Shown here in pieces: positions 14,437-35,276 of a stretch of DNA of 37,035 nt. The position numbers were made by a program, and so were the translations under genes. Source of the DNA: a virus; IMG/VR virus record IMGVR_UViG_3300050821_004906, positions 1 to 37,035 of that record; one strand, given 5' to 3'. How positions within the stretch are numbered: position 1 is the stretch's first letter; the number at the start of each line of letters is the position of its first letter. The notes beneath the pieces are model-generated. The model did no database searches. It saw only the letters and a list, made by a program, of their open reading frames with translations, and was not told where the DNA came from.

Positions 14437-15391
14437 TATTTTCTCTAGCGCTGATAAGTTCCACGAAGAACTTGAGAAAGTAAGTAATTCAAATATACCT
14501 GAACCCGTACAAAAGGAGTCTAATGATGAACCAATACTTGCAACGGAAACCACTCTACCAGAAAAACTTGAAGAGGCGTCTGAGCCTGATGTTTCTGAAT
14601 CTGAAGCCTCGCCTGATGAGTCTTATAAAGAAAATAAATACATTCCTAAGTCCCGATTTAACCAGGAAATAGAGAAACGCAAAGCTCTTGAAGAACAGTT
14701 ACAAGCAGAAAGAGAAGCCAAAATACGCTATGAAACTCAACTTGAGATGCTTAAACAGGCTCAATTATCTGCTAATCAAGAGCAACCTGAATTAGTAGAA
14801 GAATATGACCCTCTTGACCCTGATGCTCATAAGATGTATATGCGTGAGATTAATAACCTTAAGCAAAAAATTGAGAGCGTAACTCAGGAAACTAATCAAC
14901 GAACTCAACAACAAAACTATTACAATAGAGTGGTAGCAGATGGAAAAACCTTTGAGAAAGATCACCCTGACTTCAATAATGCCTTACAATATCTGGAGAA
15001 AGTCGAAATTGATGCTGCAAGGACTTTGTTCTCTGAAACGGAGGCACAACAATTTGTACAGCAAAAGCTACAAAACACTATGGTAGCAGCCGTAAATGGT
15101 GGTAAAAATGCAGCAGAAGTCGCATATAATATGGCTAAAAGCTATGGTTATTCTCCTAAATCTGCGCAACCAAAGGCTAAAGCCGGTTCAAATCTAGATG
15201 CAATTAATGACAATATGAAAAAATCTGCCTCAATTAATGGGTTACCTAACTCAATCAATATGACAAGCAATATTGATGAGAATGATTCTGATAACCTTAG
15301 AATTGACCCTAAGAATCCTCAAAGCCCATTTGACCCAGTGAAGTTCCATAAGCGTTTGGAGAAGGTTAGTGCGCCTCGTCCACATTTTTGA
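14417..15391 (+). CDS. Capsid scaffolding protein
   Basis: A 324-aa acidic, Gln/Glu-rich, coiled-coil protein between portal and capsid, the standard scaffold position. The start at 14417 has AAAGG upstream and overlaps the portal stop by 20 nt. Features: a disordered acidic N-terminus (EEASEPDVSESEASPDESYK), then KSRFNQEIEKRKALEEQLQA starting a long coiled coil, a central VVADGKTFEKDHPDFNNAL motif common in podovirus scaffolds, and a C-terminus ending KFHKRLEKVSAPRPHF that may bind capsid. Scaffolds guide procapsid assembly and then leave. Confidence 0.82.
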   Translation: MTEQNNDIFSSADKFHEELEKVSNSNIPEPVQKESNDEPILATETTLPEKLEEASEPDVSESEASPDESYKENKYIPKSRFNQEIEKRKALEEQLQAEREAKIRYETQLEMLKQAQLSANQEQPELVEEYDPLDPDAHKMYMREINNLKQKIESVTQETNQRTQQQNYYNRVVADGKTFEKDHPDFNNALQYLEKVEIDAARTLFSETEAQQFVQQKLQNTMVAAVNGGKNAAEVAYNMAKSYGYSPKSAQPKAKAGSNLDAINDNMKKSASINGLPNSINMTSNIDENDSDNLRIDPKNPQSPFDPVKFHKRLEKVSAPRPHF

Positions 15392-15420
15392 TTGACGAAA
15401 CATTTATTATAGTATGATAT
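15392..15420 (+). promoter_or_regulatory. Possible promoter for the capsid gene
   Basis: TTGACG (15392-15397), directly after the scaffold stop, with TGATAT at 17 nt or TATGAT at 15 nt as -10. The match is modest, but its position just before the long structured leader would let the capsid be transcribed separately at high level. Confidence 0.35.
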
Positions 15421-15421
15421 A

Positions 15422-15588
15422 GAAATGTGATAAGCATTTGTAGTTTATCGCATTTCTTTGCTAAATAGGGCGACGTTACAGCCAACAGAGATGGGCAACT
15501 CTATAAAAGGTTCGTGTTAGGGCAATCACGGAAAACAGCCTCGTAAAATAAGCAAGACATTTTCATTGTTTTTTTAATTTTTACGAGG
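15422..15588 (+). ncRNA. Structured 5' leader of the capsid gene with Shine-Dalgarno-masking stem
   Basis: This non-coding stretch folds into at least four hairpins. (a) A 12-bp stem, GAAATGTGATAA (15422-15433) with TTATCGCATTTC (15445-15456). (b) AGAG/CTCT (15487-15502), loop ATGGGCAA. (c) TTCGTG/CACGGA (15511-15532), loop TTAGGGCAAT, so both loops show GGGCAA. (d) A perfect 10-bp stem, CCTCGTAAAA (15539-15548) with TTTTACGAGG (15579-15588), which buries the ribosome site GAGG 8 nt before the capsid ATG. GGGC at 15520-15523 can alternatively pair with GCCT at 15538-15541, freeing the ribosome site. A regulatory RNA is inferred. Confidence 0.6.
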
Positions 15589-15596
15589 ATTTCTGC

Positions 15597-16718
15597 ATGG
15601 CAACAACCAATTTTGCAAGCAATTCTTCGAGTACCGTAAAACTGTGGTCAGAGAGAACCCTCTATGACTTCGTATCTGACACAGAAATGCTAGGGCAAAT
15701 GATACGCACCGGCGTACTACGAAGAGTTGACAACACTAATAAAGAATCAGGAGATAGAGTTACAATTTCTTTCCTTAATCGCTTAACAGACCAAGGCTTA
15801 CTTGGTTCGGCAGCGGCTACAGGTCAGGAATCAGCTCTTACATATTTCACTGACAATCTATTGATTGATCAGTTGAGAATTCCTGTCTCAATCCCAGCAC
15901 CATATACAATTGATACTCAGCGCGTTCAATATGACCTCCCTGAAGATACCTATCGTGTTATGTCTGAATGGATGAAAGTTCGCGGCGTCTTAGGAGCTTT
16001 CAATCAACTTGCTGGTAATACTGCAACAACTATTACTTATGATGGTGAGAATTACTCTGGTAATGACAGACTTAAGATCGAAGGTCTTAATGCTGCTCTT
16101 GCACCTTCTACAGCTTCAGGTGTTCAACGCATTATAAGAGCTAACAATCTTGCTACAGATCAGGCAGTCGGAGCCGATACTACAGCTACAATGAAACTTA
16201 GTTACATTTTAAATGCTGAAGTTATTGCTCAAACTGCAAGACCTTACATTCGTCCATTGTCAGAAACCAGTGAAGTAAAATATCACTGCTATGTACATAC
16301 TCAACAATATAATGACTTATTGAATGATACTACGAGTCCATTCCAGTTCCGTGATATCAATCAATCTCTCATTACTTCGGGTCGTGGTGAAGGTGAAATC
16401 CAACGTAGCTTTGTGTTCTCTCAAACTCGCATATTTAACTCTGACAAACTTCCTTTAGGCGTAAACGGAAGCTCAAGTGCCGCTGTATCTAACTGCCGTA
16501 GAGCAATCTTCTGTGGTCGTGATGCAGGTGCTATTGCTTTTGGAAAAGGCTATTCCGATGGTCGTGCTGAAGTGGCAGGTTTCAGAATTAATAGTGATTA
16601 CTATGATATCGCACAATTGCAACGCTTTGCCATGGTTGGTGTATTTGGAATTAAAAAAGTCCAATTCAACAGCAATGATAATGGCGTGATCGTAATCTCA
16701 ACTTATTCATTAATATAG
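15597..16718 (+). CDS. Major capsid protein (N4 gp56 / DUF4043-like)
   Basis: A 373-aa HK97-fold-type shell protein. The family pattern is visible: the N-terminal TVKLWSERTLYDFVSDTEML segment, GVLRRVDNTNKESGDRVTIS, the GLLGSAAATGQESALTYFTD block, a basic helix YRVMSEWMKVRGVL, and the late domain VKYHCYVHTQQYNDLL followed by RAIFCGRDAGAIAFGKG. The order scaffold-capsid-decoration-adaptor agrees. It is preceded by the structured leader and a sequestered GAGG ribosome site, so expression may be translationally controlled. No second capsid gene is seen. Confidence 0.9.
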   Translation: MATTNFASNSSSTVKLWSERTLYDFVSDTEMLGQMIRTGVLRRVDNTNKESGDRVTISFLNRLTDQGLLGSAAATGQESALTYFTDNLLIDQLRIPVSIPAPYTIDTQRVQYDLPEDTYRVMSEWMKVRGVLGAFNQLAGNTATTITYDGENYSGNDRLKIEGLNAALAPSTASGVQRIIRANNLATDQAVGADTTATMKLSYILNAEVIAQTARPYIRPLSETSEVKYHCYVHTQQYNDLLNDTTSPFQFRDINQSLITSGRGEGEIQRSFVFSQTRIFNSDKLPLGVNGSSSAAVSNCRRAIFCGRDAGAIAFGKGYSDGRAEVAGFRINSDYYDIAQLQRFAMVGVFGIKKVQFNSNDNGVIVISTYSLI

Positions 16719-34251: not shown

Positions 34252-34638
34252 ATGACCGATATTAGATTACAGCCGCAATATTATGCACCGCCTGTTTCTC
34301 CTCCTCCTGGAGCTGCTCCGCCTCCTTATGAAGTATCGCATAAATCTTTTCCTATCGGCGCTGTTATAGTTGGAATACTTACTAGTGGCCTGGGTATGCT
34401 TGCTTATTGGTTTAAGCCTCAAGCTGAAGAGAATATTGTATTTGTCGACAAACCTACAATAGTCGAAAAGCCAGTTTTCATAAATAAAACTGTGGAAGTT
34501 GAAAAAATAGTCTACGTCGATAAACCGGTTATCAAGGAGAAGATCGTAGAAAAAACTGTCTATGTTGACAAGATCATTGAGCATGACTGTCCCTTAGTAG
34601 TTCCTATCGAATACACTGACCCTTATAATGGGCTTTAA
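34252..34638 (+). CDS. Proline-rich membrane protein with VDK/VEK repeats, 128 aa
   Basis: Residues 10-26 are Pro-rich (PPVSPPPGAAPPP) and cytoplasmic if the single membrane helix at 33-54 (FPIGAVIVGILTSGLGMLAY) inserts N-in. Residues 62-110 are a periodic series of V-(D/E)-K-P/x-(T/V)-I-V-E-K words (VFVDKPTIVEK, VEVEKIVYVDK, VIKEKIVEKTVYVDKIIE), probably an extended rod. The end HDCPLVVPIEYTDPYNGL carries a single Cys. AAAGGT lies before the ATG. It overlaps the convergent barrel gene by 4 nt. A trans-periplasmic spacer such as a spanin or TonB-like arm is one reading. Confidence 0.7.
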   Translation: MTDIRLQPQYYAPPVSPPPGAAPPPYEVSHKSFPIGAVIVGILTSGLGMLAYWFKPQAEENIVFVDKPTIVEKPVFINKTVEVEKIVYVDKPVIKEKIVEKTVYVDKIIEHDCPLVVPIEYTDPYNGL

Positions 34639-35276
34639 AAACTCATTCTAACGCCGGCAAAGACGCCATGGATTCTACCATTAGACCTATGACCTTTAAT
34701 ATGAGCAGCTTCGCCACTATTAAGCATCTTGGTTTTTACGCCCTTGTTTACGAAGCGATACCCCAATTCAGCGGTTATCTCCTTATTGATTGCATACCCA
34801 ATACCTGACCCAAACTGATAAGCCATTCCATTAGAAGTCCCTGTGTAACGCTTTGTGCATGAATAAATAGAAGTCTTATTATGAGCGTAACCAATTCCAG
34901 CCATTACAAAAGGCATGAACTTGCTTTTGGTGATATGATCAAAATATACATTCGCAAAGCCAGCAATAGTCTTAGTCTTGAAATTCAATACTGAGTTCTT
35001 ATATTGCTTCTGACCCTTAATACCGTCATCCAAATAAAGCTCTAAGTCAGCACGGAGATTGTCTTTAATGCGAGAGCCCATTCCCAAAGCGCCTGTAAAG
35101 AAAGTACCTTCGCCTTTTGATTTAAGGATATCTGAGCCAACTCTATCATTTACTGTAAGTTTGTTATGAGGTAAATGCGCCCAGCCAACCGCAATCTTAC
35201 CATAAGGTGCAAGGTCATCTGCTATTGTAGTTGTTGCTATTAAAGCGATTGTGGCAGTCAATATAAAATTCTTCAT
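34635..35276 (-). CDS. Outer-membrane beta-barrel protein (Adr/Opa-like)
   Basis: A 213-aa protein. A Sec signal peptide (MKNFILTATIALIATTTIA, cleavage before DDLAPYG) is followed by alternating strands typical of an eight-stranded barrel (FFTGALGMGSRI, LRADLELYLDD, TIAGFANVYFD, FMPFVMAGIGYAHNK, QFGSGIGYAI, ITAELGYRFV) and a final GVFAGVRMSF whose C-terminal Phe is the BAM-recognition signature. The two Cys of the family core are not obvious; only one (YSCTKRY) is seen. Host-like in style and unusual in a phage; it would change the infected cell's surface. AGGA lies before the ATG. Confidence 0.85.
   Translation of the reverse strand: MKNFILTATIALIATTTIADDLAPYGKIAVGWAHLPHNKLTVNDRVGSDILKSKGEGTFFTGALGMGSRIKDNLRADLELYLDDGIKGQKQYKNSVLNFKTKTIAGFANVYFDHITKSKFMPFVMAGIGYAHNKTSIYSCTKRYTGTSNGMAYQFGSGIGYAINKEITAELGYRFVNKGVKTKMLNSGEAAHIKGHRSNGRIHGVFAGVRMSF

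Follow-up and report, generated by a model that had tools for sequence, protein, structure and literature searches.

Capsid protein must be produced in the right amount and proportion, and to our knowledge little is known about RNA-level control of its synthesis in tailed DNA phages. The virus described here (the window, 37,035 bases that make up an entire IMG/VR virus record) raises the question of whether such control is written into the DNA just before its major capsid gene. A gap of 205 nt (15392-15596), already pointed out in the first-pass annotation of this DNA, separates the capsid ATG at 15597 from an upstream ORF that stops at 15391. This ORF, for which no PHROG or NCBIfam family match was found, occupies the expected position of a scaffold gene.

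The capsid gene and its leader

The features of the gap and of the gene that follows it are listed below.

15392..15421, + strand: promoter-like boxes, weak and seen by eye; TTGACG (15392-15397), then TATGAT (15413-15418, spacer 15) or GATATA (15416-15421, spacer 18)
15421..15457, + strand: 5' hairpin of 15 pairs (15421-15435 with 15443-15457), -17.7 kcal/mol
15455-15462 with 15551-15557, + strand: P1, a tentative long-range helix with its 3' strand inside the P5 loop
15469..15483, + strand: P2, hairpin GGC-GACGUUACA-GCC (15469-15471/15481-15483)
15487..15502, + strand: P3, hairpin AGAG-AUGGGCAA-CUCU (15487-15490/15499-15502)
15494..15512, + strand: possible 3-bp P3-loop pairing (15494-15496 with 15510-15512), weak
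15513..15530, + strand: P4, hairpin CGUG-UUAGGGCAAU-CACG (15513-15516/15527-15530)
15520..15541, + strand: PK, pseudoknot of 4 bp, P4-loop GGGC (15520-15523) with GCCU (15538-15541)
15539..15588, + strand: P5, 10-bp stem masking the Shine-Dalgarno (SD), CCTCGTAAAA (15539-15548) with TTTTACGAGG (15579-15588)
15585..15588, + strand: SD of the capsid gene, GAGG by sequence, 8 nt 5' of the ATG
15597..16718, + strand: major capsid gene, PF13252 Phage_capsid_3 (E 5e-30), phrog_334

The folding energy of the leader lay 3.05 sd below that of dinucleotide shuffles, none of which was as stable (0 out of 200). The 5' hairpin had been noticed earlier as a 12-bp stem; it is present, with 15 pairs, and several relatives exhibited a hairpin of different sequence at this position (by eye). 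Three elements had been overlooked, namely the promoter-like TTGACG at 15392, hairpin P2 and the possible helix P1. The promoter-like boxes were absent from the list given by a consensus promoter scan, and TTGACA-like boxes were seen by eye at the same leader position in relatives. P1 appeared to be remade in leaders L045, L050, L069 and L109, and the overall test of cognate against non-cognate duplexes was not significant (p 0.14); with its 3' strand within the P5 loop, it might form a further pseudoknot.

Two other candidates were rejected. The ORFs of the window leader did not exceed 20 codons and were not preserved in relatives (by eye), which spoke against a leader peptide, and the minus-strand promoter-like site considered for an antisense RNA (15433-15406) was directed away from the core.

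Elsewhere in the window, on the minus strand, a RecT-like recombinase adjoined a lambda-exonuclease family protein (81-1163 and 1105-2025), a tRNA gene was located at 2457-2531, and 34635-35276 encoded a beta-barrel protein of the outer membrane, with a Pfam OMP_b-brl hit that passed the cut-off. This protein also scored 62 bits, against a cut-off of 210, with the Rickettsiales adhesin Adr family, a weak likeness and a possible hint of the host.

Conservation and covariation of the hairpin core

A capsid search identified 19 viral loci, 18 of them at 66-86% identity, and a search with the DNA pattern of the core identified 20 loci, including four that the capsid search had not given; a capsid gene followed in each case (20 out of 20). 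Wider capsid searches added further relatives. Among genome contigs, only two capsid relatives were found (30-31% identity), and 385 genomes from the class of one of these two yielded six capsid matches, five of them partial. Overall, a core of about 77 nt was common to nineteen distinct leaders, that of the window and those of 18 related phages, whose capsids were 60-86% identical to the window's where measured. Its approximate consensus was GGGCRACGNUACAGCC AAC RGAGAUAAGCAACUCY NUAAAAGGUUCGAGCYAAGGYANCCUCG RUAAACR CCUCGU.

With a covariance model, each record yielded one hit, located at the capsid leader, and no further copy was found in the rest of the record. The model likewise recovered leaders that were outside the alignment, in L078 (E 3e-10), L059 (3e-9) and L058 (3e-7), with a weak match to the L076 leader (E 0.006). 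In L001, L013 and L054, the sequence just upstream differed (by eye) and the leader still accompanied the capsid gene. The capsid gene itself was interrupted by group I introns (RF00028, 84-88 bits) at 5990-6215 of L013 and 3979-4204 of L014.

No family of Rfam 15, riboswitches included, matched the window leader at the curated threshold (best E 6 at a lax threshold), in agreement with the earlier view that it belongs to no known riboswitch class, and none matched the relatives' leaders at the curated threshold. Likewise, the leader DNA gave no match in a phage collection, and literature searches returned no description of a capsid leader RNA of this kind.

Hairpins P2, P3 and P4 were drawn by RNAalifold unaided. 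Among the 19 leaders, P2 was 100% paired, with one double change (GAC/GUC in L103) and two G-U pairs; P3 was 100% paired, with double changes at two pairs; and P4 was 97% paired, with CG/GC and AU/UA double changes. The P3-loop pairing was 93% paired and showed one-sided changes only. PK, which had been predicted in the first-pass annotation as a pairing of GGGC in the second loop with GCCU, was 96% paired and covaried: on its own it exhibited 10 double-change cells versus 3.2 in shuffles (0/500) and a covariation of 0.418 versus 0.242 (0/500). Taken jointly in alignment A6, P2, P3, P4, PK and the P3-loop pairing were 97.4% paired, with 22 double-change cells versus 6.0 in shuffles (0/500) and a covariation of 0.258 versus 0.144 (0/500); these shuffle tests ignore the relatedness of the leaders. 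When the partner strand was slid by 1-3 columns in the same alignment, pairing fell to 24-45%.

The fourth pair of PK was A-A in L050 and L103. RNAalifold's own choice for the RCCU strand, an extended P4 in which the linker (AAAAGG/AGGU) pairs with RCCU, was discarded, as it showed no covariation; where RCCU had become GUCU or AUCU (L045, L109, L054), the P4 loop had changed to AGAC or AGAU and the linker was unchanged. G-U pairs were kept in P2, PK and the P3-loop pairing, which indicates that the plus-strand RNA is the selected molecule.

Both small hairpins, P3 and P4, do present GGGCAA in the window (15493-15498 and 15520-15525), as had been reported. These twin loops, which might have been a shared recognition element, were not conserved: the P3 loop of relatives was mostly AUAAGCAA and the P4 loop AAGGYA-like, so that the repetition is peculiar to the window genome, a local coincidence.

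Masking of the Shine-Dalgarno and more distant leaders

The 10-bp stem described earlier as burying the capsid ribosome site is exact in the sequence. P5 was 92% paired in the main clade and gave no covariation there because it is nearly invariant. Other observations bear on it. In RNAfold predictions, the SD was less exposed than the mean of shuffled-upstream controls in all 15 main-clade leaders considered (15/15). Moreover, in 13 out of 23 capsid leaders, including that of the window, the SD strand was more strongly complementary to the leader than at any of the 49 control starts taken from these phages. In farther clades, with L059 as an exception, the SD stem was rebuilt with other letters, as seen by eye:

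L077: GCUUCGUAAAUAA with UUAUUUAUGGAGGC, one bulge
L076: GCUCC with GGAGC
L053: CUUUAAG with CUUAAAG
L096: CCUCUAA with UUAGAGG

PK and P5 both require CCU 15539-15541. The anti-SD strand can therefore pair in one or the other, which supports the two mutually exclusive folds put forward in the first-pass annotation. In the window, PK stacking amounted to about -8.3 kcal/mol (pseudoknot entropy excluded), and breaking the three P5 pairs that compete with it would cost 6.3; seven inner P5 pairs can persist alongside PK while the AGG of the SD is freed.

Capsid relatives at about 45-57% identity exhibited leaders with tandem mini H-type pseudoknots, built on a CGUG/CACG stem and a GUAAA or UUAAA linker. 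Where present, these units numbered 1-3 per leader, versus 0.00-0.04 expected, and their 4-bp loop pairing varied (GAGC/GCUC and AUCG/CGAU in L055, GUCA/UGAC in L059, GCCU/AGGC in L079). P4 and PK of the window form a unit of the same kind, which a strict search found in 13 out of the 19 main-clade leaders. Exclusivity between PK and P5 was clear only in the main clade; L079 and L059 either had their last pseudoknot next to the SD stem or showed no masking.

A pattern scan for tandem CGUG/CACG units beyond the known clade gave one match convincing by eye, in L165, and two doubtful ones, in L146 and L153; the remainder either fell within coding frames or belonged to a distinct repeat family. 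At 3218-3300 of L165, repeated CGUG-UGAUAU-CACG-UUAAAA-AUAUCA units, with a 6-bp loop pairing, preceded a 453-aa ORF for which a family match and protein relatives were sought and not found. In L146 (2997-3052, minus strand), two CGUG/CACG-KUAAA hairpins immediately preceded a head scaffolding gene (phrog_194), possibly by chance. The separate family, consisting of the repeat CGUGACGCGUCACGAUAAA and similar units, was present in the small contigs L140, L141, L143, L145, L149, L150, L160 and L163, and gave no Rfam match in L140, L141 and L143.

At about 22-36% capsid identity, relatives, among them the cultured phages RHph_Y1_10 and Mae-JY35, carried hairpins with the loop RGCGUSAN on unrelated stems (TGCCGGTG/CACCGGCA, TGACAG/CTGTCG and TTCGC/GCGAA); 0.004-0.01 such hairpins per leader were expected in these two phages. 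The cultured relatives PBC5, Pam5, Itty13 and Skulduggery were without one. P2 of L103, GAC-AGCGUAAU-GUC, is intermediate between P2 and these hairpins. A link between the two, noticed by eye before testing, is suggestive only. By eye, a small GCGCAUGACGUGC-like hairpin was also seen just before the capsid gene in L175, L176, L177, L179 and L180, which belong to phages of different hosts.

A putative switch, its alternatives and known pseudoknots

Given two competing folds, compensatory changes in 18 related phages and no RNA-family match, the leader looks like a conserved regulatory RNA, absent from every source searched, and apparently a new means of controlling capsid production at the RNA level. 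The earlier proposal of a structured cis-regulatory leader is supported by the compensatory changes in the 19 leaders. Judging from sequence, the leader is probably a cis-acting translational switch, controlled by the pseudoknot, that would set the level of major capsid synthesis. The structure is well supported, and the manner of switching is our proposal. P2, P3 and P4 would fold first, after which the P4 loop (AGGY) would pair with RCCU just downstream to give PK. The SD strand would be made about 40 nt later, when the same CCU, if available, could close P5 and hide the ribosome site (OFF); a CCU held in PK would leave the AGG of the SD free, even with the inner part of P5 paired (ON). Since transcription reaches both strands of PK ahead of the SD strand, PK frees AGG and the energies are similar, we infer that PK is the ON state and P5 the OFF state, and that the two would exchange in the cell. 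The hairpin block (P2, P3 and linkers) would be the likely sensor.

As the element follows one capsid family across host phyla, a phage-encoded partner seems likelier than a host metabolite, and our leading, still tentative, candidate for the trigger is a virion protein of the phage (capsid or scaffold) giving feedback. A more specific and rather doubtful version is that the PF13252 capsid protein (or scaffold) recognises its own mRNA through the RRCGU-loop hairpins and mini-pseudoknots, and that this binding flips the pseudoknot/SD switch.

The same structures could instead form a constitutive translation element, in which PK and the hairpins stabilise the capsid mRNA or aid ribosome binding (standby/S1-type) and the SD is always open. 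The capsid protein is made in greater quantity than any other product, the strong 5' hairpin is close to the likely start, PK stacking in the window exceeds the cost of freeing the SD, and some of the tandem pseudoknots of far relatives lie clear of the SD stem. However, a purely enhancing leader would avoid the unusually strong complementarity between leader and SD that is rebuilt in far clades, and we consider this reading unlikely. Conserved unpaired nucleotides, nested pseudoknots and an SD output would also suit a ligand-sensing riboswitch, with P2-P4 and P1 as an aptamer for a host metabolite whose binding fixes PK; this is improbable, given that no Rfam class matched, that the searched records always place the element before a single type of gene, the phage capsid gene, with no instance ahead of a metabolic gene, and that the sensor part changes fast between clades. 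The fixed place among head genes might even suggest a DNA element (a packaging, recombination or operator site), a highly improbable reading, as SD pairing is meaningless at the DNA level and the kept G-U pairs can be formed by plus-strand RNA only.

The putative capsid switch resembles known systems in part. In the plasmid replication gene repZ, which requires translation of repY and is blocked by the antisense Inc RNA, the SD becomes accessible when a loop pairs with the beginning of the stem that masks it. The pseudoknot upstream of the ribosome site in the ColIb-P9 (IncI) repZ leader is cited as governing translation (Asano and Mizobuchi 1998, as referred to in PMC8383071). The capsid leader likewise pairs a loop with the anti-SD strand, exclusively of SD masking, but it has only short ORFs and no leader ORF, no antisense promoter over the core and no plasmid sequence match (L006 leader DNA tested). 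The operator of gene 32 in T4/T2/RB69, which encodes an ssDNA-binding protein, contains UUAA(A) repeats and, 5' of the start codon, an H-type pseudoknot; in this autogenous control of translation, the pseudoknot is the nucleation point for cooperative binding across a ribosome site that lacks structure (PMC3014915). The capsid leader also has UUAA(A) repeats and an H-type pseudoknot 5' of the ribosome site, whereas its SD is masked by a stem, one strand of which, the anti-SD strand, also takes part in the pseudoknot. The STAXI motif is a small pseudoknot repeated two or three times, near DNA-handling genes and with UUCG tetraloops (PMC2864571). Tandem pseudoknots occur similarly in L055, L059 and L079, with one such unit in the window, but these units precede capsid genes and have GUAAA linkers, and the STAXI covariance model matched neither the window nor the relatives' leaders searched. 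If the capsid protein binds P2-like hairpins, the MS2-type coat operator hairpin would be an analogue. That operator is a single hairpin at the replicase start of an RNA phage whose coat fold is unrelated.

A 2010 review regarded the gene 32 pseudoknot as perhaps the sole viral example that serves translational autoregulation (PMC3014915). The capsid leader family would be a second candidate, on a capsid gene. Related, testable hairpins are carried by cultured phages of the PF13252 family (Rhizobium RHph_Y1_10 and Microcystis Mae-JY35) and, if the proposed binding by the capsid or scaffold protein is true, a capsid-sensing RNA switch would be common to phages of alphaproteobacteria and cyanobacteria.
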